A stretch of 64,000 bases of DNA, taken from NCBI GenBank assembly GCA_036362985.1, contig JAYGXS010000001.1, positions 51,303,954 to 51,367,953 of the forward strand. Direction: 5' to 3'. Under the pieces are notes generated by a model that did no database searches, had not been told where the DNA came from, and saw only the letters and a program-made list of their open reading frames with translations. This document shows positions 6,400-61,611 of this stretch, one piece after another (positions within the stretch are counted from its first letter, which is position 1; every line of letters begins with the position of its first letter). The translations under genes were made by a program, and so were the position numbers. The DNA is from Ligula intestinalis (Eukaryota; Platyhelminthes; Cestoda; Diphyllobothriidea; Diphyllobothriidae).

Positions 6400-8345
6400 T
6401 TAAGAAGAAGATGCGATCGCTGGAACAAGATTTATATTCCCCTGAAGTTTCGAATTCCATCGTGGATTCTTCATCAGAGACATCAGCAGACAATAGTTGT
6501 AGAAACGGGCAATACATGCACACAAAATTTCAGTAATTTAAGGGTTCAGTCATTACTGCAGCTTTAGGACAAAGACAATTGCACTTGTGTGTTTTAATTG
6601 CTTGATAACTGGCATGCGGCCTGTGAGCTTCTGAACTTGCATCGGGCGTGGTGATTGCTCGTCCATAGGGTTCCCCGTTAGTTGTGTAAAACGATGCGGT
6701 TGCCTGTAAGTTCTCCAAGTGATGACTTGCTGTAGCCAAACTGAATATCAGTAGCAATATCGACTGGACAGATTGTTGCATTCGTTTATGGACTGAGAGA
6801 CCGCGAACCACAACTCAAGTAAATCGCGGCTCTCACGATTGTCACTTCTCACACGAATTTCAGGATCATCACATTTGAATGTGTGGTCAGGTCTCGGCGA
6901 ATTGAGAATTTGCGTCATTTCTCCGCAATGCTGCCCTTTGTCCACCAATTTGCGTCTTGATCTCTCTTCCAGTTTCTCTGACGTTATTGCTTTGTCTGCA
7001 ACTGCAGCAAATCCTATACACGATTCAACATGTGGCAGGGGTCTTTGGGTTTCATTATCTGACGCCTTATGGTGGCTTTCGGTCTGTGTGCGACTCCAAC
7101 TCTGAGTGGCGCGAGAAGGCGGCCGATAGTCCCCAGGACATTTAATTACGTACGGAATCTCATGCTAGTATTTAGAGTTGGTGAGATTTTGTTGCCCATC
7201 TCGGTTGTGCATTCACTGGTAAACTTGTTCTTGGATTCACTAAAGTGCGTCTCAACACGCCGATAAAGTATCCTTACGCAACTGCGTTCGTGACTGATTG
7301 GGTGGTTACCGTTGAAGTTCCTTACTTGCATTTTGGTTGTCGCTTTCCCGAATATTTTGGCACCTTGGGCAGCACAATTTTTGCAACATTCGAGGACATA
7401 AGGATGACCGGCTGGTTGTTTTCTTCCTCCTGCGTCGTTCAGTTTATGTCCGGGAAGAAGCTGTTGAGACGTTCTTTGAAAGTTTGCATCTGATCCCGAT
7501 TGATAAAAACGAATGTATCATCCACATACCACGACCAGTATTTCGGTATGTGGTGCTGGAAGACCAGCGAATCTAACCGTTGTAGGACTGCCTCGGCTAT
7601 GAATTCCGGAATCGCTGAACACATTGGTGATCGCTTCACATATTAGTCGACTGTTCCGTCAAACGCAAAGAACGTGTTGAAATAGATCTTCAGAAACTTA
7701 AGGATTTGGACATATCCAAAGCAATTCGCCAGCTCAGCATATCTTATTCGTGGGAGTATTTCGACGGTCTCGACAGCCAGATCCTGGGGGCTAGAAGCCA
7801 AAAGGGACGTGACATCGAAGAAACAGTAAAGTCACTAGCAGCAGACTTTACCCTTTAAGTTTCTTCAAGAAGTGTGTTGCTGAACGGACCGTAGTCTGCG
7901 AATCAGCGGTCAGAAAGTTGAGACGCCGAAACAGCCGGTCCGACCGTTTGTGTGCCTCTTAGTGGCACGATGGTTTGGAGAGGAGCGCCCACCTTTGGCA
8001 CTTTGGGAAGGCCATGAAAGTGAGCTAGGGCCACAGCTTGCGCTCTCGGCATGTGTAGTTTGGACGGCTTTATCGCATCTGACTTCTATAAAGTTAACAG
8101 AGTTGAATTGATTTCACTTGTCAGCTTTCCGATACTTTTGGTTTCACATTGAACATAAAACTTGAGATCCTCCAGTGAGTTTTTCGTTTTTCTGAAGATA
8201 GTCGGTTCTGCCCAATAGGACGGTGTTGAAACCTTGCAAATCTCACCAGCTCCATTTTCACTGGGGGTTTGTATGTAACACATTTCGTCCATACCTTCTT
8301 TTCAAGATTGAATGATCGCCAGTTACAGGTTTCACGTTCCACGTT
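6400..8345 (-). mobile_element. Penelope-like element, family 1, copy a (decayed)
   Basis: Read on the - strand, fragments of a PLE polyprotein follow each other in the right order but in shifting frames. From about 8030 to 7640 comes the N-terminal half of the reverse transcriptase (HFHGLPKVPK-type motif, then APLQTIV). At 7639-7439 come the AEAVLQRLDSL segment, the catalytic YVDDTFV and the KERLNSFFPDI segment. At 7331-7220 comes HPISHERSCV followed by YRRVETH. From about 7030 to 6830 come remnants of the GIY-YIG endonuclease tail, ending with RDLLELWF and SQSINECN. The 3' tail runs to a terminal repeat with a hammerhead-like motif at 6444-6477. The enzyme would make cDNA at a nick by target-primed reverse transcription; many stops and shifts show this copy is dead. 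The 8345-8086 part is tentatively upstream element sequence. Confidence 0.8.
6430..6490 (-). ncRNA. Hammerhead-ribozyme-like motif, PLE family 1 copy a
   Basis: On the - strand: CTGATGA (6477-6471), a hairpin of type GAATCC/GGAATTC, then GAAA and CTTC (to 6444). An extra A separates CTGATGA from stem II, and helix III (ACTT) is no longer self-complementary, so this copy is probably inactive. PLE terminal repeats are known to carry minimal hammerheads thought to act as dimers. Confidence 0.4.
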
Positions 8346-19959: not shown

Positions 19960-21570
19960 CAATTTAGAGAAGAAAATAATACGATCGCTGGGACAAGAAT
20001 TTTTATTTGCCTGTCGTTTTGAAGTCCGTCGCGGATTCTTCATCATAGAAATTAGCATAAAGAGTAGCAGAAGCGGGTAATTCATATACGGGGAGTTGCT
20101 TTACTCAAAGGCTACAGTCACTAATATACCGCACTGGCTGAAATACTGACTGTCTCTGATGACAAATCTGCGATGCATCTCGAAAAGTCAGGTGAATAAA
20201 AACGTTGTCCCAGCAATCGAGTCGTCTCCCTCTCAAATACTACACGCTTATGATAATTAACGACTCACCTATTGAGGATAATTGCCCATTTGTGCGTTAA
20301 TTGCTTGATGACCGACGTGCGGATCGTGATCGGCTGAACTTTCGTCACACGTGGTGAACTTGGGCGTCAACGTTGCACGACGCGTTGGCCTGTGTGTTTC
20401 CCTAGTGTCGAGTTGCTTTGGCCAAATTGAAATTCATCACCGAATATGGATTTGGCAGGTCGTTGCACTTGTCCATGGACTGGGTGCGCGTGTACCATGA
20501 CTCAAGTAATTAACGAATCACACGATTGCCACCTCTTGCGAGAATTTCCGCCTCGTCAAGGCCGGGTCTCTGTGAAGGAGCCACAACTTGAGAATTGGCG
20601 TCATTTCTCTGCAATGCTGCCACATGTTCGCGAATATACGCCTTGATGACTCCTCCAGTTTCTCCGACGTAGTTGCCTCGACCGCAATTGCATCAGATCC
20701 TATAGATGACTCCAGATTTTTCATGTCATAGCAGTAGGCCTTCTGGTTTCATTATCTGACGCCTTAGGGCTCCCTCCGGCTTGTGTGCGACTCCAACTCC
20801 GAGTGGTGTGAGAAGACGGCCAACGGCCTCCGAGACTGTTTTACGTACGGAATTGCTTGCCAAAATTTGAGGTGGTTGCAATTTTGTTGCCCATCTCGAT
20901 TGCATATGCACCGGTTGAAGGAATTGCACGGGTAGCCATTTTCGCTGAACACCCGTCAAAAATATTGTATTTCAGTGTCTTTGTTTTTTAGGTTACTGCA
21001 GGGCGTCTCACCACTGCCGACAAAGCGTCTTTACGCAACTGCGTTTGTGACTGATTGGATGGTTTTGTCAAAAGGAGTGATAGTCGACTACAGAAGCTTC
21101 CCCAAGTCAGAATGCCGTAAGACCTATTAGATGAGACAGTGTACTATAAGAAAAGGAGCTGGCAAAAGGCTCTGCAGAATAGAGCGGCTCTCAGTAGACC
21201 AAGCACTTGTTGTCTTCTGCGTTCCTGTACTGGGCTGGAGGCAACCTCTGAGTAGTCATGCGACCAATCAGGAAATCGGTCACGCGGGATGCTGCGGCCA
21301 ATTTGGCCATGAGCGCGTGGGTGGCGGCGCACGACTTGACAGCGACGAAAAGGTGTGAACACAAGGGATAATCATAGGACCGCCACAGTTGCCGTTGGAG
21401 TTCATTTCCTGCATTTTGTGTGTTGCTTTCCTGAACACCATGGACTTTAGGCCACCTCAATCTTTGCGACGCACAAGGACATCGAGGAAGGCCAGCTGGT
21501 TGTTTTCTTCCTCCTTCCTCGTAAATTGTATGTCTGGGAAGACGCTGTTGAGGCGTTCTTTGAAGTAAAC
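19960..21570 (-). mobile_element. Penelope-like element, family 1, copy b (interrupted)
   Basis: The - strand carries in order: the end of the reverse transcriptase (KERLNSVFPDIQFT followed by NNQLAFLDVLV, about 21565-21470), a thumb segment (to about 21370), then after about 300 bases of unrelated sequence NHPISHKRSCV (about 21065-21030), NGYPC and the linker with IPYV (20960-20830), then the GIY-YIG endonuclease motif CG-GNYVGETG and IREH (about 20690-20620), a tail with RELLESW and SMDKCND, and the terminal-repeat hammerhead-like motif near 20013-20047. The order RT, endonuclease, terminal repeat equals that of copy a. Frameshifts and stops make it a pseudo-element. Confidence 0.8.
20010..20050 (-). 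ncRNA. Decayed hammerhead-like motif, PLE family 1 copy b
   Basis: The - strand has ATGATGA in place of CTGATGA, a stem II hairpin of type GAATCC/GGACTTC, and AAAACGAC in place of GAAACGTC. Two core positions are changed, so cleavage is not expected. Confidence 0.35.
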
Positions 21571-23689
21571 ACACTTTTTCATAACTTGCAGAGATAAGAA
21601 TAAATAAGCAGCAAGGTGTTTTGTACTTTACATTTATTAACCACATTTTTGAACTGAGTAACTTGAAACGAAATTGCCTTGCCAATGGTACTTGAAAAAA
21701 AATGCGATAAGGCACTTTAGGCATGGTATGTTTCGCAAACTGCTACAATTTGGAAATGAAATAAAATGATTGATTTGTAAGATGAAGGGATAAGAGAATT
21801 TTTTTGAAAATTCAAAGACAGAGCAAATTCATGGCCGGCAAGGCTGTCATGAACTTGCAGGCGACGACAAATAACACCACTATAAGCGCATAAGCCACCC
21901 TGAGAATGCTTAGGAGTCCCTATTACCCACAAACACCACCCCTGGTACCAAAAATGTGGACACGATCCCATTCGTTCTTCATAGCGATTGAACCCTCGCA
22001 TCATGCATCAGCATGCTCGCCCACTTACAAATGCACAGAAGTAAGTCAGACGAACCCGTAGCAGGAACATCACCGTGTTCCCATCACCCCGCCTCAACTG
22101 TCTACACTATTTGCAATCATTAAGTAATCAAATGAGCAGGCTAACTTCCATCATCACACGTCTCTCCTTCCATCCCATGCACTGCAAACAAACAGGTCCC
22201 AAATAACTTGCCATTCGCAAAATATAATGCACATTGCATTTAAATATGCAGCGTATCCTTTGCTTGTAACTTTATGCCTGTCTCGATTGTGCGTGGCCCA
22301 CGTGCGCGGACCGCTTTAAACCTTACAACCATAGCGTCAAATCCCAGTTCCAACTGACTATCGTGCCCGAACTGGTGCATGCAGGAGGAAAGAGGAGGCT
22401 AGGGCGACTTTGTGGACGCCATCTGAAGGAGATATTGGCGTATTATGATGCGCTTTAATCTATCTCGACGTGCAAAGCATCGTGAGTTGGAAGGTTGGCA
22501 ACTGACCAAATACCTCCACGCACGTAGTCAGTGCTGTATACGGGAAGATAACTGGCCGGAATTTTCAGAATGAGGCTCAATAGCTACTCAGTAGGGTCCT
22601 CATGGTACCTGAAAAAAGTAAGTTCCAAGTCACCTTCCCTTTTGTATGCGAACCTAGTGTGTTCTACGGAATAGGCCGTATGTGTCAGGCATTGACATGC
22701 TCTTAACGTTCTGTAAGAAAATTGCGACTTATCCCCACATGAGATGACTGACTGATTCGGACCGTGACAGGGAACCCGTGAGAGGGAAGGGTGAGTGAAT
22801 TTGACTTCAAGGACTGCAGTGCCACGACACTTAATGCATACTACACACTATAAAAAATCTAACGTACTTTTAAGTTGTCATGGTGTTATAAACATCGTAG
22901 CCGCAAAAGGAAGCTATAACTCAGTTCTATTCTCAGAACAAAGATAAAGACTGCAATAGGGCCTTAGGAATATGGCATCTATACCTTTCTACGCAAATGA
23001 GATCCGATCGCCTTTCCTATTGCTTGTGTGAAATCTTGGTTTACCCGGCGTGGAACAGACGCGTAGAGCAGGTGCCAAAGTGTATTTAAACATTCGCAAT
23101 CACTGCGCCCGATCTTGTTGGCAGTCTCCTTGACATTATCTTGACTTCGGTGCCGAAGGCAATACTGTGGCAGATGCAGCGTACGTCTATTATCACTGTA
23201 AACTAATTCACGCACAAAGCCTCTTCCTTGTGCTTGCAGTCCTGCTAGATACACAGGCGAACTCATCGTCAATGGTGTTTGAACTGTCATTCATTAATGA
23301 AGTTACTTAAATGACGATGCAACAATTACCATGATTAATAATTTTGAAACGACTGTGAAGTTTTATATTTAAAAAGATGCACCAAACTTTATCAGAGACT
23401 TTTGCCCTTTTGCCAAATACATCATGCTAGAATCCTAGTGTACCTATGTAGATACAGAAGCAAACCAATTTTGTGCGCTATTACTTTTGTTTTGCATTAA
23501 AATATGCTTCTCTGGGGCAAAACATCTCAAATATTAGCACTGCCTTTTTGGCAAATTTCACATTCGAGCAAACAATAAGTTTCAAGTATAATTTTGGGTA
23601 AATTCCGTGATCAAGTGGTTTTTTCCCATAGCACTCTTTCATCAATAAACGTCAATATCTCCCGACCTAAACCGGCTAGAAAACGAACT
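21571..23689. other. No gene supported
   Basis: Moderate G+C with several overlapping short frames. The largest (22979-23290, -, 103 codons) has no recognised motif. It may be old repeat DNA. Confidence 0.3.
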
Positions 23690-25398: not shown

Positions 25399-25445
25399 TT
25401 GCGTGAATTTTCAAAACTGGAAGCCCAACTCGTCATCAGAGGCAA
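25399..25445 (-). ncRNA. Hammerhead-ribozyme-like motif with stem I, PLE family 2 copy a
   Basis: On the - strand: TTGCCT (25445-25440), CTGATGA (25439-25433), a stem II hairpin closing on TTGG/CCAG with loop GCTT, then GAAA and ATTC (to 25405), then ACGCAA (25404-25399). TTGCCT and ACGCAA pair at five of six positions (one C-C mismatch), giving stem I. Helix III (AATT) is self-complementary, as expected of the minimal dimeric hammerheads reported in PLEs. Stem II pairing next to the core is weak (extra C after CTGATGA), so activity is uncertain. Confidence 0.5.
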
Positions 25446-25516
25446 ATTCAAGTGAAAGTGCCACAGCGGCTAACATCGTGAGTACCCAGACAACGAGATG
25501 GACGGACAGCCGTGTG

Positions 25517-28129: not shown

Positions 28130-28260
28130 AACAATACCGTTTCTGTTACTATTTTCTGCTAATGTGTGTGATGATGAATCCACGACAGATGCCGAAACGT
28201 CGGGCAAAAAAACGTATTGTCCCGGCGATCTAGTCGTCTTCTTCGCACTTAACTTTGTCT
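28130..28260 (+). repeat. PLE family 1 terminal repeat with hammerhead-like core (+)
   Basis: The segment is the reverse orientation of the repeats at 6.43, 20.0 and 40.05 kb. Core: GTGATGA (28169-28175, C3 changed to G), a hairpin, GAAA then CGTC (28195-28202) with the self-complementary helix III ACGT kept. It continues into 'tattgtcccggcgatc' and the terminal 'cgtcttcttcg'. No PLE coding sequence is seen beside it, so it is an isolated end. Confidence 0.5.
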
Positions 28261-37649: not shown

Positions 37650-37745
37650 TGATTTCAGAAGAAGAGGATTCGATCACTAGAACAAGAGTTTTATTTGCCT
37701 GACGTTTCGGGTTCCGTCGGGAATCCTAAATCATATGTGATGGTA
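37650..37745 (-). repeat. PLE family 1 terminal repeat, solo fragment
   Basis: The + strand reads 'agaagaggattcgatcac', 'aacaagagttttatttgcc', 'tgacgtttcgggttcc', matching the ends at 6.43, 20.0 and 40.05 kb. GAAACGTC is intact on the - strand, but the CTGATGA box is lost. Confidence 0.5.
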
Positions 37746-40018: not shown

Positions 40019-40465
40019 AGAAGAAGAAGACTCGATCGCTGGGACAATATGCTTATTCACCTGACGTTTCGATATCCGTCGCGGATTCGTCATCCGAGAC
40101 CTGAGAAGCAGAAAGGTTGATTATGCACAGACGTTTGCAGTATTTACAGGACACAGTCATTGCTGCAAGCATACAGCGACAATTAACGTTAATTGCCTTC
40201 TTGTGCCTGGACTGCTTGTTGGACGGCACGCGGGCTCTGACCTGTTGAACTTTCGTCACGGGCGGTGAGCTCGGGCATGGTGATTGCTCGGCCGTCTGGC
40301 TCCCCGGTGTTGGCGTGCGATGAGGTCGTGGCCTGCCTGTTCCTCAAGTGATGGCTTGCTTTGGCCAAATTGAATCTCAGGATTGAATATGGATTGGGCT
40401 AATCGTTGCACTTGTTGATGGATTGGGGGCCCGTGAACCATGACTCAAGTAGTTCTTCTTCTTCT
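40019..40465 (-). mobile_element. PLE family 1 3' fragment nested in family 2
   Basis: The fragment holds the end of the family 1 element: a tail coding region (about 40440-40250, parallel to 6811-6600) and the terminal repeat with a hammerhead-like core at 40063-40096. It begins in a (GAA)n-type tract at 40017-40030 and ends at a (TTC)n tract at 40454-40477. PLE family 2 sequence resumes on each side. This is a 5'-truncated insertion. Confidence 0.6.
40060..40100 (-). ncRNA. Hammerhead-like motif, PLE family 1 nested copy
   Basis: The - strand has CGGATGA (U4 changed), a stem II hairpin of type GAATCC/GGATATC, then GAAA and CGTC (40070-40063) with self-complementary ACGT. One key core base is altered, so it is probably inactive. 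Confidence 0.4.
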
Positions 40466-40477
40466 TCTTCTTCTTCT
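40454..40477 (+). repeat. (TTC)n microsatellite
   Basis: Seven TTC units and a TTCTC end. It mirrors the GAA tract at the left border of the nested PLE fragment. Confidence 0.8.
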
Positions 40478-41205
40478 CAATTGCTTCCTGGGACACAGAT
40501 GTTCGCTTGTATTGGCAAATTAGTTGGGCGCGATGCGCTTAGTACGAACTTTGCCTGTCCGTTCACTGCTAAATGCATTTAATCTTTCTAAGGTTGGCCG
40601 CGGGCGCGCTTGCGTGACCTTTGTCACATTTAAATTCCAACGTAGTTGTAGACAAGACAATGTGCCTACTACCATATCCCCCGCTAAACCTTGAACTGCT
40701 CAGTCATTGCTGTTCACTTGAGGTGCTTTTTACTTCGCATCGGCGCATCGGTGAGACAGTTTTGACCGTATCATCTAATTTTTGTTAGCAGAAGCCCTCG
40801 GTTTTGAATGCTTGTTCGCCCTACTGACCCTGCACGAAGTAATCCGAGCCTTGTACGAAGCGTATGCTAGGCGGGATGGAGATCTATAGCTCTGTTAATT
40901 GTGCCAATCGAGGTTCAAATTTCGAGTACCAGTCTGCCCATTTTCTCATTGTTTCTGCCTAGTATCCGCGCTCTTTCAAAGGCAAAACTGTAGTTAAGGG
41001 GTTGTACGTGGCTATAAACCAGAGGCAGCTTGTGCCCACGGTTGTCTGTAAGTAAGCATTTGTGCAATGTTGCTTCCAGAGGTTTGGGTGTTTCACCAAC
41101 ATACATCGCATCGCAATATTGGCACGATATTTGTAGACCATTGCTGATTGTTGTGTTAATATTAACGGATCGTTGGGCTTTGTGACTTGCTGTCTGATTG
41201 TACAT

Positions 41206-42060
41206 TTCGGTTGACCAGTTTACGATTGAAAGAAAAATCAACAATCAGTTGCCCTTCATTAACATCCAAATTACAAAACTGGTGGACAGGAAGGTAAAAA
41301 CAACGGTCTACCTTAACGTAATCAACACTTCCGAAATGACTATCCTGTTAGCCACAAACTTAGTTATATCAGAACACCCCTCGGATGTGTTCAAACACTG
41401 CCACAACGACAGTGAAAAGAGAAAGGAGAAAAGTGCTTGCGTGCCGTTTTCATAACCCACATTTATCCGAAGTTCTCAAGCACTTCAGGAAGCCTCATTT
41501 TGAGTGGCTAAGCGGTGAAATGCCAAAATGCTGGCTCACAATCCCCTTTCTAGGGAGCCTTCTTCCTCTAATAATAAAGTGATTTATGTGCAGAACATTC
41601 CACGGGCGACGACTTCAAGAAAGAATGGGAAAAGGATGTGCGTTAGCGATCGCTAGGCATGATTCATGGAAGAGAATGCGCCATCAGACAGCTAGTCGTG
41701 AAGCCGAACGACTCGCTAACAGTAGCAGAACCACCAGCAACGGTCTACAGCATATGTTGCCAATATTGCGATTGGCGAAACAGCCAAAAGTCTGGAAACA
41801 ACATTGCACAAATGTCTACGGAAAACGATGGGTAACGACAAGCTTCCTTTGGTTTATGCTCACGTACAACACCTAAACCACAGTTGCGACTTTGATAAAT
41901 CAAGGTTAATGGGCCGGACTCCTGCTGGAAGGTTGATACTCGACTGGCATACTAAGCAGAACCATACAACTGCATCCAACCTACCAGACGCTACGCGCAT
42001 GGCCTGCATCATTTTCATCAAGGCCAGCCAAGCAAAATCAAGTAACGCAAACAACTGATA
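41206..42060 (+). mobile_element. Penelope-like element, family 2, copy c (inverted partner)
   Basis: The + strand begins inside the RT thumb (QFTIERKINNQLPF at about 41215, then KVKTTVY and VFKHCHNDSEKRKEK to 41436), continues through broken frames into the endonuclease region (SNGLQ near 41740; LHKCLRKTMG, LPLVYAHVQHLNHSCDF and RLILDWH from 41804) and a tail to about 42060. It is the same family as the - strand copy on its left (SNGLQISCQYCD, LPLVYSHVQPLNYSF). The two share a junction near 41206 and read away from each other. Frameshifts and stops abound. Confidence 0.7.
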
Positions 42061-42599
42061 TCAGCGAAAACTGGGAGAGGCGCTGACCTGAGGTCATGTG
42101 ACCAACGTCTAACTCCCACGGATCAGAAAACAACTCACGGGAACAGCTACAACTGATCAGTCCACCAATTAACGTGGGGGCAGAACCAACAGAAACCCTA
42201 ACTTGCCCAAAACTATTCAAACCCCAAGGATTATAAGGATCAAGCGAACTCACTAGCGGTCAACCTTGCAGAGGTCAAAGACAAGCAGGAGCAAACGGGC
42301 AGGTCAAAACTCGTGAGTCCAGAACGGCTAATGTATGAGAAAAGTGGCAAGACTGACATACTCAAGACTACTAAGAACAACGACCATAAAACTTTGATTC
42401 TGGAAAAGAGCCCTTTATATGGTAAGTGACTGGGGCATGTCTTTTAAGAGTCGTACTCTAAATTTCAGTGAAAATTCGAGTCAAAAAACAACGCAATGCC
42501 CATTCTACAAACAAGTGGTATGAATTCCATATAGCAAAACATCATATTATACTCTCGACAGAGATACTATATGGACTTTATACTACTTTTCATACTACT

Positions 42600-42670
42600 A
42601 CATTGCTGCTGATGTCTCTGATGAAGAACCCGCCGCGGATGTCGAAATATCAGACGAATAAAAGTATTGT
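42600..42670 (+). ncRNA. Best-preserved hammerhead-ribozyme-like motif
   Basis: TGTCT (42613-42617) precedes CTGATGA (42618-42624). A GC-rich hairpin follows (CC/GG core, outer GA/TC, loop GCCGC region), then GAAA (42644-42647), TAT and the cleavage base C42651, then AGACG (42652-42656). TGTCT and AGACG pair perfectly (with one G-T), giving stem I. Helix III is ATAT: it differs from the ACGT of sister copies but is still self-complementary. An extra A lies between CTGATGA and stem II. All universally required core bases are present. Confidence 0.5.
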
Positions 42671-42769
42671 CCCGTCGATCGCACCTCCTTTTCACCCGTT
42701 TCTGGTACTCTAAACTCTTTAAAATTTGAAGGCAAATACTTTCTTTGGAAAACAAAGGAACTTTATCGG

Positions 42770-49085: not shown

Positions 49086-50450
49086 CTACACTGACTAACT
49101 GACTGACTCCTTACCGTTTCACGCGTAGTTGCACGACCATAAAGATCGCATAGATAGTTCTGTAGGCCCTTTGGAATCAATCTTGACTTTTGGAAAGAAC
49201 TGGTTGCTTCGTAGGAATTGGAAAATAGGCACCTCAAGAAATATAATTTGCGAGAAGAGATTCTTTGGGAAATGTAAACGAAATGCATTTTAAATTTTCG
49301 ACGCTGGCACACCAGGTCTTCGTCGGACGTGAAGGAAATGTGTAAGGAACACTGCGCATTTTTAAATACCAAAAATCGATAATGCTTTGTCATCTTTGGT
49401 CAATAGCAGGCCCTGGTGGTTGGCGCTTCTTACAGGCTTCTTTGAGACTGTTTTATTTTGAATCCAAATCAACCTGCCGATTGCTGCATGATTCGTTAGA
49501 GATAATGACCTCTAAAGCTTCGCGGCCTTTCCTCTATGGGCAGGAACCTTCTATGCGGGTTTAATCTAATGCAAATTTGTGCCCACTTTCAACCGAATGC
49601 ATGACGACTTCGGGCAGGTGATCGCGCCTCTACCGCTAATTGGTTTTCATGATGCGTTTAGACGCGGAACTTTTGTTTGTCCACAATAAATTGGATCGCA
49701 GTCGTCGCAAAAAATTTGGTAACCGACCTCTTTTCTGTCCGAATAGCCGACCGTATCCTTAGGGCGTACAAGCTGATTTCGAAGCGTGGTCGTTGGCTTG
49801 TGCGACACATGGCTCTGGTACTTCCTCAGGTGTCTTTCAACAAGTTCAGACATGTTCTTCACATTGGAAGCTTTCGCCAACTTCTTGGATTTGGCGCTTA
49901 ATCCGAACACTTAAGTTCCTTCTCTTTTTATTTTAACTCTAATTATCTCATGCATCGATGTACGCACTCTCTAGGAAAACCACTTTTTTGAGAATAATTT
50001 GAAAATTTACTGCAATTCGTTTTGGTAAAGTTGGATGTCATAACTGCGTGTTCTTGCTTAATTGATTAGGGTGTTCATTTACTCTGCTTATACATTAGGG
50101 TGATTGCTCTTGTGATGAAGGACAACATCAGCGTAGACATTTTTGTGGTAAACCGATGTTTTAAAAGTTCCGTCAGTATCCCGCTGTACGAGGACGTCAA
50201 GAAATGAGAGTTTACTGTTATCTTCTTTTTTGAACGTAAAAGTGATTTCTGGACTCTGATTCCAGCTGGTCCATGTTAACAATGACAAACATATCATCAA
50301 CATAGCGTTCCTACAACTTGGGATTAACTTGTGGTAGGGCCATAGTTGCTAATTTTTGCATCGTTATTTCAGCCAAGAAGCCTGAAATGGCCGACCCCAT
50401 CGGGGATTTTTTTATGTGTTTATATTATTGTTGCGCGAAAGAAAAATTAT
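49085..50450 (-). mobile_element. Penelope-like element (family 2-like), copy d
   Basis: Right to left on the - strand: RT thumb with DNSKLSFLDVLVQRDTDG and TSVYHKN (50303-50110), then at 49910-49650 the linker LVRPKDTVG and the endonuclease start YQIFCDDCDPIYCGQTK, then a tail, the block 'gcggcctttcctctatgggc' (49527, shared with 25.73 and 37.56 kb) and a terminal repeat with a hammerhead-like motif at 49292-49326. A further 103-codon frame (49393-49082, with GLQNYLCDLYGRATTR) follows and may be the start of a second tandem unit. Confidence 0.7.
49290..49330 (-). ncRNA. Family 2 hammerhead-like motif, PLE copy d
   Basis: The - strand has CCGACGA (both U of CTGATGA changed to C, 49326-49320), stem II GAC-CTGG/CCAG-GTC, then GAAA (49299-49296), ATTT with self-complementary AATT. 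The core changes suggest inactivity; stem II is intact. Confidence 0.4.
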
Positions 50451-50589
50451 TTTCCAAAAAAATCTAAGAGATCAAGCAGGGCAGACACAGGAAAATCAAT
50501 TTCGTAGGAAGTAAGAGAAAGGCTGGGTACACATCAAGCACACACTCGCACATACAAACCATGTAAAAACCACTACATCATATTATGTT

Positions 50590-53606: not shown

Positions 53607-53610
53607 TTAG

Positions 53611-53836
53611 AAGGCCACAACTACCCCGTGCAAAACTCCGCAACCCCCACCGGAAGCTGCGACCCCTGTCGTCGGCATCCTGGTGGTCGGTCAGGGAGAG
53701 CGCGCGGCAGAAACCCATCGTATAGCACATATACCACCCTTGATTTGCGGGACTGTGAGGTCAGCCCGAGCAGCGCAACTCGTAATGGGAACTCGTTTGA
53801 CTATGTGGAGGCTGATTGTGATTTTATCACCGCCAA
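53611..53836 (+). CDS. RNF10: RNF10 first visible exon
   Basis: Open from after TGA at 53604-53606. An AG at 53609-53610 after a T-rich stretch is the likeliest acceptor. It codes an Arg/Gly/Ser-rich lead and then NSFDYVEADCDF. Confidence 0.55.
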
Positions 53837-56800
53837 GTTAGTTCGTGTGTTTTTCTCACCTTTTAGGTGTCAAGTTCTAGTCTATCCAGGAACAGATGTG
53901 AGTATGCATCTGCACTCTTCGGATGAGGTAATCCAGTGGAACGACGTTGCAGAAGTTCGGTACTTTCATACTGAACCCACCAACTGCCCGATATGTCTGT
54001 ATCCCCCGGTAGCTCCCCGAATGGGTCCGTGTGGCCACATTTACTGTTGGCCCTGTATTTATCGGTTCATTACGAATGAGAACGATCTTCTGTCGAGGAA
54101 ATGTGCTGTTTGTAGTGTCTTCCTACGATGTAGCGAGCTAAAACGGTACGATGCCTTTCCTATAGTAACCACATGTTTAGGGTATTTATGTGCCCTGTGG
54201 AGCTGCCTCTTGTTGGGCAGACATGCGAGCTGGTGCTCATGAAACGCGCTAAGAACATTATGTTCCCTTTGAATTTTTCGGAAAAGTCTACCTATATCCC
54301 CATGCCGAATGCCGAGGCTGGGTCCTCATTTCTTTCTCGAGTGGCCGTGGCCACTTCGGTTGATATCAGAAATCTCCTCAAAAGGGACCAATGTTGCCTC
54401 GAAACTTACCTAGCAGAGTGCACTTCAGACGATGACCTCAACTGTATGATTCCTTATGTTGAGGCTCTTCTTCGCGAACTTCAGGAAGAACTGGATTCTG
54501 TTGGACTAATCAACCGACATGCGCACATACCTAAACCTCCCCTCCTTAATGTTTCTGACTCCGAACACATGTACACATACTACGAAGGTTTTTTCATTTC
54601 TTATCATTCATTCGGTTTAGACGTTCATGGCCTCGATATTTATCTCCACAGCGTGAATTGGCGTTGTCTGGTAACTGACTATAAGGACCGTGAGCTGCCG
54701 CTACGAATTTCGGGCACCGTTGTGCAAATTGAGCGCTTCTCGATGAATCATGTAAGTTTTTTGCTTCCTTGTCATCATATTTCACTTTCCTTTCGGTCTT
54801 TCCTTTTGTACCTTTTGCTTTCATCTGAGGAAAGCCATTCTTCCCCACTTCACGCATGGGAACTCCTGAAATAACGTCCTCTCCAACAGCTGATAACCGT
54901 ATCGTCTCCTTTGCTGCAGCCTTCGATCGAACGGCAGTTTCTTGGTAGTATGCCTTCGAAACCCAGAGAAATACAACCATATTGTGAACTCAAGCGAGCC
55001 AACGCTTGAATTGTATTGTGCATGGTTAGCACTTTAGGTTAGAGTTGGTATCCTAAGAAGTTTTACCCTTAAACCAGTGCAGCACGATTATACGACAGAT
55101 TGAGTTCAATCCGTATCACAGTGAGTTCACCCAAGTTGAGTAGTCTTCCCATTTCCGGCCTAGACTATTGCGTAGATCTCTCTTTGGGAAACGCGATCGC
55201 CCTTGACGGCATATAAGTCGCCTTCCAATTCATTTTGTCCTGAACGTTGTGACAATTAAAGTACTAATCAAGAATGTTCTGTACCTCGATAGAATTTTGC
55301 TTCCTGTTTTACCGAAAGACCATTTTCAGAAGAACCTTGACCGTCGTAACATTTGTGATTTGAAAAGGTGTCTTTGGTCTCATCGTAAGGTTATCAGGAA
55401 GCAGATATCTCAGTATAGGAAGTTACGACTAATGCCTTCTTCATATCGTCGAACCTTAAAATTGACATCTTTCTGGTTTGAGAAGAATTTATGTATTTAA
55501 ATAATTGGCACCCCCAGTGAGTAATGTAGCTTATAGATTACATCCAGCTGAAACCCCACATGTGACCTGCCGTTGGTAACACAAGGAGCCACTGTCTTAT
55601 GTGATTCGGTTTGGGGGTCCCATCGACTAAAGGACTATCATCTTTGACCAAATCCTTTAAATTCCTGCTCGGTTGCACGCCATCATGGTGTTGATCAATG
55701 GATGAACTGACTTAGTTTGATCCAGTCAGATCTAGAACGATGCCTATCCGGACTGTTATTTGTTTTAGCCTGTGAAAGAACATTCTGTATAGCTTCAGAG
55801 GTCCAAGACGGCGATCGCAGATTATGAGTTCTCAACACCCTGTACAAGAACGTCTGTAAAAACAGGGTAATAAAAATGCACTTTATAATACACGTATTCG
55901 TGTGTTTGTCATTTTTCTGCATGTTCACTTGTTTCAGGTTTATTGACGCCCAATTTAATGAGTTGTGGTTTGACATGTTTTTTTTCATTCTCTGGCTCAA
56001 TCAAAGATGTGCAGTGATAACTAGTCATGCAGCTTCCTTGTGCTAGCAAAAGGGGCGGCAGGTTTGATGACGCCGAGGTTAAATCAAGTAAGCCATACAT
56101 TGTAGCAGCTCCAACGCTTCAGTGGATATCTTGTTGGATGTCAAGTTAGCCACGATGGACGTCCCCGTCTTCAAGGTTCTTCGGCCATACATGGAACCTT
56201 ATCTCGCCATATTTGGTCCTACTTAAGTCGTATGCAATTTAAAACGCTGGTATCTATGATTCACTAAAACGGAACCATATGGCCGCACTATTTTTAGTAC
56301 GATCGTTGTCCGCCAGGTGCTATGGATTCATCGATTTGTCAATTTATTTTATTCCTTTAGGATCTTCGAAGAAGGTACCGGTACCTGAGTCATTTACCTA
56401 TTGGCCGTCCCTTCTATTTTGTTGAGTTGGATTTGCAGCCCCCGACTGTCAGTCAAAAGACGTTGGACGAAATGTCTGACTTGCTTCTAGCTCGTTCTCG
56501 GAAGCGCGAACAGCAGCTGCAAAAGGAACTGCTTCTGACGCTTGCGAAGGAAGAGGCTGAGAATCGAATTCCCACGCTCCGTAAGTCTCCCCTTTTCGTC
56601 TGTTTTCCCATTTCTCTTAATAGACAATGGATCAGTGAACCGAATCCGTTTTCAGACTGGTAGCTTTAGTTGGGACTACGCGACAGTAGTAAATAAGTCA
56701 GAAATGGCCGCTCGGTATCTGTTATTTTGCCCGTAACCATAACCAACCAGTATGCTCCTTCTCCTCTTTCCTATGAATAATAAATTGATCTGTTATTTGT

Positions 56801-59800
56801 GCCCTCTGCGAAGACAGGTCGTTCAACACAGCTAATGTGCAGGGTTTTACGAACTGCCCACCACCGGCCACCCACCTCGAAGCAAACTCTCCTGTCTTAA
56901 AACAGTAATTCCCTGGCACTCTCAGTCGCCTCGACATCTGGCATGCTCCCGTACTTTATGATTTTATGTATTACTTGCCGTGTCATTCATGCAGAGTTTT
57001 CAAGCTAGCGTTATCATTAGATTGTTACTTAGTAACTTGTAGGATATATTGAAACACCCCAATAGCCCCCCTCCCCTCCGTTCTTTTCCACTCTGGGCCG
57101 ATTTTACGACAAGCGCCCTTTACGAATGTCGTGATTGGGATATAGTCGAGTTATTCAGTACGCAATAGCCGAACAGTCGAGAAGAATGAGAAGTCCAGTA
57201 CCCTAGAATTGGGCTTTACTCATCTTATTTTTGTCGTACACGAACTAAAAAGGGATGAAGAGCGGTTAGGATTATATAGGCAAACATCAAGCGTTCGTAG
57301 GGAGGCAGGGGTGAATGTTAATCAACGAGTGTAAGAAGGTAAGGGTGAACGGTAATCAACGAGTGTGATAAGGTAAGGATTAATGTTAATCAACAAGAAT
57401 GAGCGGAAAGGGGGTGAACGAGTGTCAGATTAGTATTAACACCACATTCTCCCCGGCCAACAAAAAAGGGGCATAATGTTCACAAATCCACTCTAGAGTT
57501 TGAGTGGGATAAATACTAAGCGTCTCGGTTGCGAAGGCAGTATGGATGGACGCGTTGTTGTTGTTTTATTAACGTCTCCAGGTTATGCTTATGTGGGTCC
57601 TCTTCATTATAGTCATGATCAGGTGTTGTTACACCTTGGTTGTCAGTACAGCCGGTGCTGTTTTCCAGTTCGGCATTGGGTGATTGGTGAGGCGGAGGTG
57701 GAACGGAATTTTCGACTAAGGGAGTGGCCGTCTCCTGATGATGATCACTGAGAACCTTTTCACCTCTAGGAGCAAGTAGTCGAACAGATACTGTCAAATC
57801 GTATATGAGCTTACTGAGTGTTGCACTGGAGTAGATCAACTTCCTCACAGAGCGGGTCATATTTGGACTGTTGGTTACTCTTCTTCAATAGGACTCGACC
57901 AGGGGAAGAGAGCCACATAGGAAGAGTGGTTCCAGTGGTTAATCTCCGATTATAGGCAAACATTCTTTCATGTGGTGTCGCGTTAGTGGCGGTTTGAGGA
58001 GTCGATCCATTCTGAGTTATAAGATGAGTAAATTGTCGTGATTGGGATATAGTCGAGTTATTCAGTACGCAATAGCCGAACAGTCGAGAAGAACGAGAAG
58101 TCGAGTACCCTAGAATTGGGCTTTACTCATCTTATAATTGTCGTACACGAACTAAAAAGGGATGAAGAGCGGTTAGGATTATATAGGCAAACATCAAGCG
58201 TTCGTAGGGAGGCAGGGGTGAATGTTAATCAACGAGTGTAAGAAGGTAAGGGTGAACGGTAATCAACGAGTGTGATAAGGTAAGGATGAATGTTAATCAA
58301 CAAGAATGAGCGGAAAGGGGGTGAACGAGTGTCAGATTAGTATTAACACCACAACGAATCTAAACAAGCTGATGTGGTTGGCGCCAGCGATTCAGAAGCA
58401 GTAGTCGCAGATTTCTTTCTTCAACTGTCTCTGATGATAATTTTCATTGAGGATCTGAGACGCCAGCCCGATAAACAAGTGCATATTCTTCCTCTGCCGG
58501 CTATCCAGTCTAACGATCTTAATACACCTATGACAGCCGATATTGAGAATCTCCGTCATATGGGTGTCCGATTGTTTCCTCTTTCCCTTTTTTGCAGCTC
58601 TTGGTTGCAGGCTGGTGGCTCATGCCGATTTGACCGAAGTGCCAACAGACGAAGACTTTGTCCCACTTTGTGAAATGTCTGACGTCCAATCGGGCACATC
58701 TCGTTTCAATCGTTCTTTCGCTTCAGTGAGTTAAAATTGTTATGCCTGTTTAACTTTGGCCAACTCGCCCCAGTGTGTATCTTAAAATCGATAACTGATA
58801 ACGTCCACAACTGGTCCCAAAACTTTTCAAATTTGTTTACGGTTGTATTGTCCTGCCAGATCTGGTGCCCGTAGCATTGGGTGTAGTGTTAGAACTTTGA
58901 TGTTGATATTTCGTAAGCTTCAATTGTATTTCGATTCATTTCCGTTAACTTTTCCGTAGCTAGAAGGCAAGGCATTCAGTTATAGAAAGTCTGCCTTAGC
59001 AAATTTTTTGAATAGGGTTACTTCTTGTTCTGGTTATGTTCATGTCTAGTATAACCGGTTTTGTTGTGTCAGGACCATTCCTCCTCACGCCAATTGGCCG
59101 GTGGCGATGGGTTTCGAAAGTCTGGCCAAATTTAGCCGCGACGATCGAATTTCCAACAAACGACTCCTTTTTTGACAAATCAGGCCCTGCTTTTATTGAT
59201 TCTTCCCCTCTCCTTCATACCCAGCTAAACAGTAGTACCAAGGGGACGGTAGCAGGAATAAACGGGAGAGGCAAATGATAAATAACGTCCACGGCCAACC
59301 TCAATAGACTTAAATCTTGATATTCAACCTCTATTTTCAAAAAAGTGGTTTACCCCGATTTTTCGCCCTTGTTTTGGCCGCTGTTATAGTTTGCATCCCC
59401 TGCCCTAATTCACCTTGTAGTCACCATCGTTGTCCCAGTGAATTTACACGTTTTCACAATTGCCTCGGGTTTCCCATATGTGAACCCTGAATCCGACATT
59501 GGTTGTACGATGCTGCGCTGCTGCTCGGTGGGGACTAGGCAGTTAAGTAAGGGAAGCTCAGTGCTTACTTACTTGTACTGGATCCGATTAGCTCTTTTTG
59601 TTGGGTGAATCACCTTCACGGATGTCACGGATAGCGGCAGCCCATGGACGGAGTTAGGAAGCGAGCTCCTCGCAAATGTTAACCGATTGTTTGTCCCCGT
59701 GTTGCAAGCCGTAAACGGTTACGAAGCCCGTGCGTTCGACGTCCGACTTGGAAGTGTTGAGCCACGTCTTCAGTTGACTGCCATGTCGGTATCTCCAGTT

Positions 59801-61611
59801 TGCGCTACGTGAGGGATTCACTGCCAGTCTGCAGAGGTCCGTCGATGGCTTGCGTAGGACATGACCAAACCATTGCAATTGGCGATTCTGGATGTATAAT
59901 GCTAGATTGGGTTGTTTGAAACACCTGCGGTATAGCTCAACATTGGAAATTCGATTTTGCCAGAAGACTCTTAAGGGGGCATCGAGAAGACTTTGAGCGA
60001 TTGGATGTCAGCCTTTCTGACAGGCCATGTTTCGCAAGTATATACTAACACCGGTCTGATTGATTCTCTGTATATAAGCAGCTTAGGCTGCTACCGAATG
60101 GGCAGAGCAAGGACGACATTGTCTCCCGTATCGATGCTTCTCGCTGGGTTTTCTCGATCCTTCGAAAGCACCTATGTATCCGACGTGACATCTCCATCGC
60201 CACGAAGATTCGTTTATACCGTGCATCCATCCGGTCAGTCCCGCTCTATGGATGTGAATGCTGGGTTGTGCGCGCTGAAGATGAGCGAAGACTGGAGGTC
60301 TTTGATCACCGGTGCCTGAGGACGATCCTGCGAGTTAAGTATAGCGACTTCATCTCAAATGAGACAGTCCGCATCCGCTGCGATCGTATCACGAGAATAT
60401 CTCAGGCCATTCAAGAAAGGTGACTGGTGGTTTGGACACGTTCTCCGTCGTCCGCCCCACGAGCTTACCTATGTTGCCCTCGACCCGGCACCGCAGCCCA
60501 CCTGGAAACGTCGAAGACATCCTGACATCATTGAGGCCGGCTAGATCAGACATGATCACAGCCGTAACAAGTACAAGTAAGCTGATGTCTGAGCGAGACC
60601 AAAGTGGTCTGGCTAGCAGCCTAGATGCTTTTCGAGCCTGCGCGATTCGGTTCTTGATTTCTTCTTTGGCCTGTCCGTTGGCTAGCATATTCGAGCCCAA
60701 ATAGCGGAAGCAGCTAACTTCTTCGACGGGTTGACCGCTGATAAACAGTGATTGTGCTGTCCCAAGTTGCGTAGTCAGGAAATTCGTCTCGCGTATATTA
60801 ATCGTAAGCCCAACAGTTGCAGTGAAGCTGGTGATTCGGTCTAGCGTTGGCTGTAATGACTGAGGGGTATTACAAAGTACGGCAATGTCATCGGCATACT
60901 CCAAGTCAGGTTCTCCGAATTCAGGGTTCATTTCACATCCACTGTCAGGTAGAATTGATTGATGCACCACCCACTCGATCAAGGGGTTGAAGAGAACCGG
61001 AGAAAGAGGGCATCCACACGATAATGATCAAATAGAATCATCGGAACGGAACTAAGTCACAGATAGAATAGAAAGTCTGCCTTATGGAATTCGGTGTTAT
61101 AATCAAATTGGTCCTCTAAACTACTGTCTCTGTTTGCCAAGGATCGGTTATGCGAACTAACATGGTCTTCTCTGCATAATGTTTTGTTCCTTTTCACGAA
61201 GAATCCTCTTTTTTGCTATTATAGGTGTCTAAAGTCGGCGCTTCTGCTGTCGTAGACAGTCACCGCATTGCCAATTTCCCCGAACGCAGTGACGGTGAAA
61301 CAAATAGACGAGTTGGTTACATTTGCGCAGCCGAATTGTGGCCATCCCTCACCGAGGCCTCGCCTATCACAACGACGACTTCCGGTGCCTGGGGTATGGG
61401 TGGCTCTATCTGTGCGCCTCCCATTCACGCACTCGTGCGGGAGCCATCCAATGTTGCTGACTTTTCAGAGCCTGTTCCTCCTTTAACCCTAAGGAAAGCC
61501 GGCCAAAATCGAGGATCCCGCAGAAAAAAACAGCACAAACCCGACGTCCTCGATCTGGACCGTCTTGCTAAATGCCTTTCTTTGCTACCCAGCAACAAGG
61601 GGTCTTCCTAA
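53611..61611 (+). CDS. RNF10: RING-finger E3 ubiquitin ligase, RNF10 orthologue
   Basis: RNF10 is a cytoplasmic RING E3 that in vertebrates ubiquitinates 40S proteins uS3 and uS5 on stalled ribosomes. Exons read from sequence: 53611-53836, 53867-54145, 54181-54751, 56361-56580, about 58405-58563, 58598-58725 and 61225-61611 (TAA). Signatures in order: NSFDYVEADCDF (the FLQANCQF region of the human protein), WNDVAEVR, RING CPIC-x11-CGHIYCWPC-x15-CAVC, VGQTCELVLMKR, YTYYEGFF then HSVNWRCLV and SGTVVQIE, then RRRYRYLSHLP with FVELDLQPP and SQKTL, a basic Lys/Arg/Glu segment, and a C-terminal SFAS/VSKVG site. These follow the human protein from RING to C terminus. About 660 residues are visible (human 811); the N-terminal low-complexity exons are missing, so the first exon's start is uncertain, as is the acceptor near 58405. 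No disabling changes are seen once the mini-introns are removed. Introns 4 and 6 contain retroelements. Confidence 0.85.
53837..53866 (+). other. Possible 30-nt mini-intron in RNF10
   Basis: GTTAGT...TTTTAG, 30 nt, a multiple of three, so reading through would add ten residues (from LVRVFF). The T-rich 3' end and the hydrophobic extra segment, absent at this point in the human protein, favour an intron; retention is equally open. Confidence 0.45.
53867..54145 (+). CDS. RNF10: RNF10 RING exon
   Basis: Codes WNDVAEVR and the complete C3HC4 RING (CPIC to CAVC at about 53985-54120). Ends in phase 2 (CG of an Arg codon) at a GTACG donor. Confidence 0.85.
54146..54180 (+). other. 35-nt mini-intron in RNF10
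   Basis: GTACG...GTTTAG. Removing 35 nt joins SELK-R to VFMCPVELPLVGQ, restoring the frame between the RING and the LMKR segment as in human RNF10. Without removal the frame runs into unrelated residues and a stop at 54240-54242. Confidence 0.75.
54181..54751 (+). CDS. RNF10: RNF10 central exon
   Basis: Codes VGQTCELVLMKR, an acidic middle, YTYYEGFF, HSVNWRCLV, SGTVVQIERFSMNH. Ends in phase 0 at GTAAGT (54752). Confidence 0.85.
54752..56360 (+). other. RNF10 intron 3 (1,609 bp)
   Basis: Bounded by GTAAGT and 'attcctttag'. An 83-codon + frame at 55249-55500 is basic but has no motif. No transposable element is clearly recognised. Confidence 0.75.
56361..56580 (+). CDS. RNF10: RNF10 exon with RYLSHLP motif
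   Basis: Starts DLRRRYRYLSHLP, then FVELDLQPP and a charged helical segment; ends phase 1 at GTAAGT. Matches the RHRYLSHLPL region of human RNF10. Confidence 0.85.
56640..56745 (+). repeat. SINE body fragment, copy 4, in RNF10 intron 4
   Basis: 'gggactacgcgacagtagt', 'aaataagtcagaaatggcc', 'gctcggtatctg' align with the SINE bodies at 9.48 and 23.76 kb. Confidence 0.4.
57122..57126 (+). repeat. Target-site duplication ACGAA (left)
   Basis: Identical to 58354-58358, directly flanking the TG...CA ends of the LTR element. Confidence 0.85.
57127..57446 (-). repeat. LTR (3' LTR of the - strand element)
   Basis: 320 bp, TGT...ACA. Contains about three tandem units of about 34 bp at 57309-57410 sharing 'taatcaac' and 'gagtgt'. 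Confidence 0.9.
58034..58353 (-). repeat. LTR (5' LTR of the - strand element)
   Basis: 320 bp, aligned without gaps to 57127-57446 with about five substitutions, and with the same internal tandem units. Confidence 0.9.
58354..58358 (+). repeat. Target-site duplication ACGAA (right)
   Basis: Copy of 57122-57126. It lies only about 50 bases upstream of the next candidate RNF10 exon. Confidence 0.85.
58405..58563 (+). CDS. RNF10: RNF10 variable-region exon (start uncertain)
   Basis: The frame continues from phase 1; AGs that keep frame end at 58395, 58401, 58404 and 58410. Codes a low-conservation stretch with LPLPAIQSNDLNTP ending LRHM-G. This region is poorly conserved in the family, so support is the frame and the downstream mini-intron. 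Confidence 0.55.
58564..58597 (+). other. 34-nt mini-intron in RNF10
   Basis: GTGTCC, a pyrimidine tract, TTTTTTGCAG. Removal moves the frame by one and joins LRHM to ALGCRLVAHADL, leading in frame to SRFNRSFAS and the last exon. Confidence 0.7.
58598..58725 (+). CDS. RNF10: RNF10 exon ending SFAS
   Basis: Codes an acidic stretch (TEVPTDEDFVPL) and NRSFAS, ending phase 0 at GTGAGT. SFAS plus VSKVG of the next exon corresponds to SFAQMLRVGKA in human RNF10. Confidence 0.75.
59585..59985 (-). mobile_element. RTE-like element C-terminal part (- strand)
   Basis: Right to left: LRVFWQNRISNVELYRRC, then QLQWFGHVLRKPSTDLCRLA (59878-59800), WLNTSKSDVERTG, a stop near 59654 and AAAIRDIREGD at about 59640-59605. 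The WFGHVLR and AIRDI motifs mark the C terminus of RTE-type proteins. It is the continuation of the RT piece at 60.57-61.02 kb, separated by a + strand insertion. Confidence 0.7.
60078..60545 (+). mobile_element. RTE-like fragment inserted on + strand
   Basis: The + strand reads LPNGQSKDDIVSRIDASRW, then RRDISIATKIRLYRAS, LYGCECWVVRAEDERRLEVF, RTILRVKYSDFISNETVR, ISQAIQER, then after a frameshift near 60425 FGHVLRRPPHELTYVALDP. It has the same domain order as the - strand element it splits but is a different, less decayed family member; it overlaps the homologous segment NGQAKEEI of the - strand piece, so it cannot be an inversion of it. Confidence 0.75.
60560..61025 (-). mobile_element. RTE-like reverse transcriptase fragment (- strand)
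   Basis: Right to left: GCPLSPVLFNPLIEW (about 61012-60970), LEYADDIAVL (catalytic YADD, about 60905-60875), FTATVGLTIN, CFRYLGSNMLANGQAKEEI (60695-60640) and LWSRSDIS, where homology stops at about 60590. It is 5'-truncated at about 61025. RT of this type performs target-primed reverse transcription. Confidence 0.8.
61225..61611 (+). CDS. RNF10: RNF10 last exon
   Basis: Starts VSKVGASA in phase 0 after 'ctattatag', includes CAAELWPSL, a basic patch (RGSRRKKQHK) and ends LPSNKGSS with TAA at 61609-61611. ELWPSL corresponds to the DVWPK region of human RNF10; the basic patch resembles the human C-terminal KKRKKQKQK. Confidence 0.8.
   Translation: MSKVGASAVVDSHRIANFPERSDGETNRRVGYICAAELWPSLTEASPITTTTSGAWGMGGSICAPPIHALVREPSNVADFSEPVPPLTLRKAGQNRGSRRKKQHKPDVLDLDRLAKCLSLLPSNKGSS

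Follow-up and report, generated by a model that had tools for sequence, protein, structure and literature searches.

Does a helix that has changed in sequence and remained palindromic record selection on RNA pairing, or can decay alone produce it? The question is raised by a hammerhead-like motif, called copy F here, at 42613-42656(+) of the window, as we term the whole 64-kb stretch of DNA that was analysed. A first-pass annotation had described the motif as near-intact, with ATAT in helix III where sister copies carry ACGT, and had read the changed palindrome as a sign of selection on dimer pairing. We consider it very probable that copy F is instead the fossil of a minimal type I hammerhead of a Penelope-like element (PLE), with helices under selection in the family and an ATAT that arose by two chance transitions.

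The letters of the motif are as first described. All on the plus strand, TGTCT (42613-42617) pairs with AGACG (42652-42656) to form helix I, five of five positions being paired, one as G-U. The core CTGATGA follows at 42618-42624, and an extra A at 42625 leads into helix II (together 42625-42643), which is supported by copy comparison and, as is helix I, by a shuffle test. Helix II, a hairpin of 42626-42643, is imperfect: the pairs G42626-C42643 and A42627-T42642 adjoin the core, A42628-T42640 to G42632-C42636 make up the remainder, and there are one C x A mismatch, a bulged G42641 and a CCG loop. GAAA (42644-42647), the self-complementary ATAT (42647-42650) and C42651 complete the motif, with a predicted cleavage site after 42651. 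The combination of CTGATGA and GAAA alone is close to chance, with four occurrences in the window versus 1.67 expected and four reached in 7 of 100 shuffles; the core spacing of copy F is found at four sites in the window compared with 80 summed over 300 shuffles. When this spacing is joined to five pairs in helix I and six or more in helix II, only copy F remains in the window and none is found in 300 dinucleotide shuffles. Copy F thus carries the core CUGANGA..GAAA..NUH with hammerhead spacing, and a profile built from its seven sister copies, with F left out, recovers it at E 1.4e-15. Its reading as a hammerhead holds: the motif is of the minimal PLE type, and its helix III is palindromic. 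The covariance-model check proposed with the hammerhead families of Rfam went the other way: in release 15 copy F has no hammerhead match at the gathering threshold and none listed up to E 10. In the lowest-energy folds of copies A, E and F, and in that of the family consensus, the core is hidden or broken every time; since the consensus fold hides it too, the hidden core is no argument against copy F in particular. These folds also give no support for a ribozyme, and a core hidden in the modelled monomers would fit a motif that is non-functional or that needs a partner or a protein.

Eight copies of the family occur in the window, F and seven sisters, identified by family match and, for A, B, D and E, also by tblastn. 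Helix III reads ACGT in copies D (37657-37733(-)), E (40019-40108(-)), G (28153-28244(+)) and H (372-447(-), the most decayed of all), ACTT in A (6402-6490(-)), ACGA in B (19967-20061(-)) and AAGT in C (20146-20234(+)). The statement that the sisters read ACGT therefore applies to four of the seven; in A, B and C helix III is not self-complementary, so that the palindrome is present in five of the eight copies. Divergence from the consensus ranges from 10.6 to 35.4%, and CTGATGA is intact in F, A and C and altered in B, D, E, G and H. The nearest copies on the same strand as F lie 14,450 and 22,457 nt away, neither with ATAT, while B and C stand tail to tail with a gap of about 84 nt. Taken alone, the window copies show no covariation in their helices (76.6% paired versus 76.3% when shuffled).

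The family belongs to PLEs, whose 3' ends its copies mark. When the broken protein of copy B was read through, its endonuclease region matched 126 proteins (E up to 1e-3); among the matches listed, all 120 belong to Sparganum proliferum, a diphyllobothriid tapeworm, or to Spirometra erinaceieuropaei, with identities of 47 to 66%. One paper puts the share of Penelope in the assemblies of Spirometra and Sparganum at about 10%. Using six of these proteins, tblastn located PLE bodies upstream of A (6757-8306(-)), B (pieces within 20272-21621(-)) and E (the C-terminus of the open reading frame (ORF) at 40192-40443(-)), and, more weakly, one ahead of F; no body was found with them at C, G or H, and the match at D, to residues 3-32 of protein P0028 (E 4e-4), is the hammerhead block itself. 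The decayed body of copy F occupies 41216-42602(+), with a weak reverse transcriptase match at 41216-41472, an inverted-repeat likeness to other PLE pieces at 41772-41913, and many stops and frameshifts. In copy F itself helix I and the core are retained, and 26 codons form an open frame. Protein matches upstream of several copies place the family in a PLE, including one copy with AGCT in helix III from elsewhere in the genome (L018, 137-219), whose upstream body matches at 38% identity (E 9e-51).

Other elements of the window were recorded along the way. A divergent Penelope fragment (31% identity) at 49674-50463(-) has none of the eight copies nearby, and a reverse transcriptase ORF with an RVT_1 match at 60392-61027(-) is probably from a LINE other than Penelope. 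An ORF with a RING finger at 53607-54239(+) found no relative at E 1e-3. Two 300-nt direct repeats (57127-57426 and 58034-58333) are 98% identical and 907 nt apart, and an RNA-OUT match below threshold at 25418-25505(-) (E 1.4) is probably a chance hairpin.

Across the genome the pattern CTGATGA..GAAAYRTC has 8482 matches, compared with 135 for the reversed pattern. The ACGT form (CTGATGA, 18 to 20 positions, GAAACGTC) occurs 6760 times versus 5 in the reversed-pattern control, and a second form, AGCT with CTGANGA, 4651 times versus 11, giving more than 11,000 copies of the two groups in one genome. A profile search of 200 kb, evenly sampled from the initial 12.5 Mb of contig C1, yielded 26 copies; among the 24 with helix III, ACGT accounts for 14 and AGCT for six, and these 20 are strict palindromes. 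Helix III is thus reduced to a loopless palindrome in most sampled copies, as it is in five of the eight in the window. At some loci copies lie in close inverted pairs (C1:579707, 580153 and 580392; 6502143 and 6502230; L006-L008). Among places of 29 nt there is a third hammerhead form (like CTGATGATGGCTAATAAGTCAGAAATATC and CTGATGATGACTAACAGGTCAGAAATGTC); its helix II has about five pairs, the extra nucleotide is missing, and helix III often reads ATGT. Outside the genome, the family pattern is absent from viral_contigs, and two further hits were set aside as chance: one Spirosoma contig that matches the pattern without the family flanks, and a single blastn match against phages.

Comparison of the two groups reveals what the window copies could not. 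In 15 aligned rows drawn from both, 90.3% of 165 cells are paired, and changes on both sides of a pair separate the groups in helix I (C-G to U-A), helix II (U-A to C-G) and helix III (C-G to G-C). Such changes account for 18 cells, a value as high as which was reached in none of 500 shuffles, tests that ignore relatedness. The number of pairs with a both-sided change is not unusual (188 of 500 shuffles), which is expected if few events separate the groups, and the difference between ACGT and AGCT may go back to one event. Within the AGCT group, helix II is paired at 86.1% in 72 distinct rows (of 100 listed) versus 78.2% when its arms are re-dealt (0 of 1000 as high), and at one of its pairs A-U, C-G and G-C are all common. 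Likewise, folding is better for 59 distinct inserts, taken from the first listed places, than for their halves re-dealt, with none of 200 as low. At the level of the family, helices I and II are held by compensating changes, and the switch between ACGT and AGCT supports a change of helix III with retention of the palindrome. The idea that such a change suggests selection therefore survives for the two groups and fails for copy F, and the same division applies to the paired changes at helix III proposed as a genome-wide check, which are seen between the groups, the ATAT copies being one-off variants.

That selection on dimer pairing carried copy F itself from ACGT to ATAT in concert is very unlikely in our judgement. 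ATAT is self-complementary, PLE hammerheads are reported in a title to cleave as dimers (Lunse 2017), and in 644,354,889 bases the ATAT form occurs 69 times compared with 3 in the reversed-pattern control. However, all 69 copies are distinct and scattered over many subfamilies; 34 are of the subfamily type of copy F, and the nearest of these differs from F at 4 of 34 places. The unpaired CG of loop II provides a control. Among 59 listed copies of this subfamily type, selected for YR in helix III so that transversions there are invisible, helix III reads CG in 51, CA in four, TG in three and TA in one, whereas the loop reads CG in 51, CA in three, TG in three, TA in one and AG in one, so the unpaired site changes in equal proportions. 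In the first 83 listed 34-nt places helix III has CG in 73, CA in five, TG in three and TA in two, and the odds ratio for TA is 9.5, from two copies; for the loop CG it is 3.5, from one copy of 80 listed. The loop control rests on these 59 to 80 listed copies, and mixed copy ages raise both odds ratios.

Further results also count against selection on copy F. The palindrome was lost in three of the four changed window copies, and duplexfold gives -1.7 for ACGU, a weaker +1.6 for AUAU and +2.9 for AUAU with ACGU. ATAT turns an Arg into Tyr in the overlapping frame of copy F, the body of which is broken as described above. In a neutral simulation, at least one changed-yet-palindromic copy among eight appeared in 15% of trials, and 13% of the copies with exactly two changes were of this kind. 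From the 69 scattered one-offs, the matching proportions at the loop CG and the neutral simulation, we read the ATAT of copy F as probable decay by two chance transitions, and the claim that it displays selection on dimer pairing has to be given up. CpG decay was considered as its source and rejected, the window not being CpG-depleted (0.90).

The hammerhead also overlaps coding sequence, a point overlooked in the first-pass annotation. The core AUG, which we take to be A6-U7-G8 in hammerhead numbering, is the ORF start codon in relatives, and the consensus in its frame reads MKNPRRISKRQANKNLVPAIESS. Five of the 120 proteins retrieved via the endonuclease region start with the N-terminus encoded by the hammerhead, as do 11 of 14 further proteins that were retrieved by a query with this N-terminus itself. 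PKRQ is present in 15 of these 16 proteins and PKCQ in P0125, several being near-identical and so not independent; P0128 begins MSLMMDSS, as ATGTCTCTGATGATG would encode. At the locus L026 a copy is followed in the same frame by a match to residues 3-173 of P0126 (60% identity). The core ATG of copy F (42621-42623) is in the same frame as the PLE ORF start, as taken from the protein N-termini; a second in-frame ATG lies upstream at 42612. A conserved tail at 42657-42690(+) continues in this reading frame to the end of the family match in the family alignment.

Could the motif be conserved solely as protein code, its likeness to a hammerhead being incidental? The matching N-termini would agree with this, as would the excess of variation at third codon positions (45 of 184 versus 56 of 380, one-sided p 0.004, for eight window copies whose sites share ancestry) and the endings of 10 of the 120 proteins matching copy B, which read VS[DV][DAG]GFE, as the block does in its other frame. 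Still, a coding role by itself is extremely unlikely, since the arms of helix II covary across subfamilies and all three helices show both-sided changes between the groups while Arg gives way to Ala: six translated AGCT-group copies, two of them with an early stop, read PKAQ, PKAR or SKAQ in the ORF frame. A switch between ACGT and AGCT that comes with an amino-acid change in an overlapping ORF is the trace expected from selection on an RNA-RNA helix. The proposal that the block is the C-terminus of the ORF was dropped; the N-termini show the start to be general, and the C-terminal overlap is limited to some of the gene models. Both peptides can be encoded by a single short DNA string, and of 108 measured protein tails 12 stop 30 residues earlier and others at other lengths, the evidence from both termini coming from automatic gene models.

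Where insertions end can be read from the copies as well. Mean pairwise identity among the eight falls from 0.61 in the last shared ten bases to 0.28 in the next ten, 30 nt past the start of a shared TTGT, and the downstream flanks have no shared match at E 0.01. The drop and the unrelated flanks together indicate that insertions end in a tract of serine codons. A second junction, at 40454-40546(+), agrees with this: an inverted piece of a PLE ORF start begins there with SSSSSSSSQLLPGTQMFACIGKLVGRDALS, the part of the ORF start that lies beyond the tract. This piece, which adjoins element E, itself truncated at its 5' end, starts at the TCT (serine) tract. That tract, common to it and the eight tails, suggests that reverse transcription may start there. 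With the ORF start inside the hammerhead and a common 3' end just downstream, the family has the architecture of PAc, the Poseidon element of Anolis carolinensis.

That the motif is not a PLE end but a small repeat of the non-autonomous, retrozyme-like kind is scarcely credible: metazoan retrozymes do bear type I hammerheads, some with a weak helix III according to the portions of the literature consulted, but the short non-coding tandem repeats that define them were not found at the copy F locus, where no tandem array other than a TTC tract appeared, PLE coding sequence lies upstream of several copies, and the hammerhead block continues the PLE ORF start.

Returning to copy F as the fossil of a PLE hammerhead, a mechanism may be proposed for its intact relatives. 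Here the hammerhead would overlie the ORF start, the AUG of CUGAUGA serving as start codon, while helix II and GAAACGUC would encode a basic N-terminus (PKRQ) and helix III would span the Lys and Arg codons. Reverse transcription would begin downstream in the serine-codon tract, as we infer from the end that the copies share and from the example of PAc in Anolis, and each insertion would then end with the hammerhead and some 40 nt. A living ribozyme would presumably cut multimeric transcripts, two hammerheads being joined through the palindrome. Three ACGT copies on one strand of L026 (3836-3916, 4381-4457 and 4764-4839), with an ORF start between two of them, imply that one transcript can hold several hammerheads. 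Selection at the family level would maintain the three helices, two PLE groups having come to differ in the palindrome by a switch between ACGT and AGCT, and copy F would be dead.

By inspection, ACGU and AGCU are each self-pairing but do not pair with one another. A tentative and rather doubtful extension is that the palindromes act as private dimer codes and as a switch between translation and processing, set by the dimer. If so, the multimeric RNA of each group would be cut only by partners of its own group, and, with the start codon within the same 44 nt and cleavage about 30 nt behind it, translation and processing would exclude each other on any one RNA. With more than 11,000 copies, both the role of PLE hammerheads and their action as dimers become testable by counting. 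What began as a single suggestive copy becomes a genome-wide test, in which decay explains ATAT.

How does the family compare with known systems? Minimal type I hammerheads of PLEs have reportedly been described by Cervera and de la Pena in 2014 and by Lunse et al. in 2017. As in these, the present family combines a CUGANGA and GAAA core, a loopless helix III and a location in PLEs; unlike them, as far as the reviews consulted in part describe them, it has an extra nucleotide after A9 in both groups and two palindromes, ACGT and AGCT. The extra A had been noted as a departure from the canonical core, and it is indeed present at 42625, but it has precedents: the base after A9 is A, C or T among the window copies and, in the AGCT group, T in 94 of the 100 copies listed, and the plus hammerhead of chrysanthemum chlorotic mottle viroid, an unrelated viroid hammerhead, likewise has an extra nucleotide between A9 and helix II, where A costs slightly, U helps and C or G harm, according to excerpts of its description (PMC3705267). 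A further comparison is with PAc, which needed protein for cleavage (PMC11167929). In both, the hammerhead overlaps the ORF start, and insertions end inside it through an internal start of reverse transcription, which would hold for the present family too; the ORF of PAc begins at stem II after G8, whereas here the AUG lies inside the core, and PAc insertions end in an AC-rich stem loop, in contrast to the TCT tract found here. On the strength of its letters and context, then, the motif appears to be of a known kind, a PLE hammerhead whose ORF start and 3' end are arranged as in PAc.
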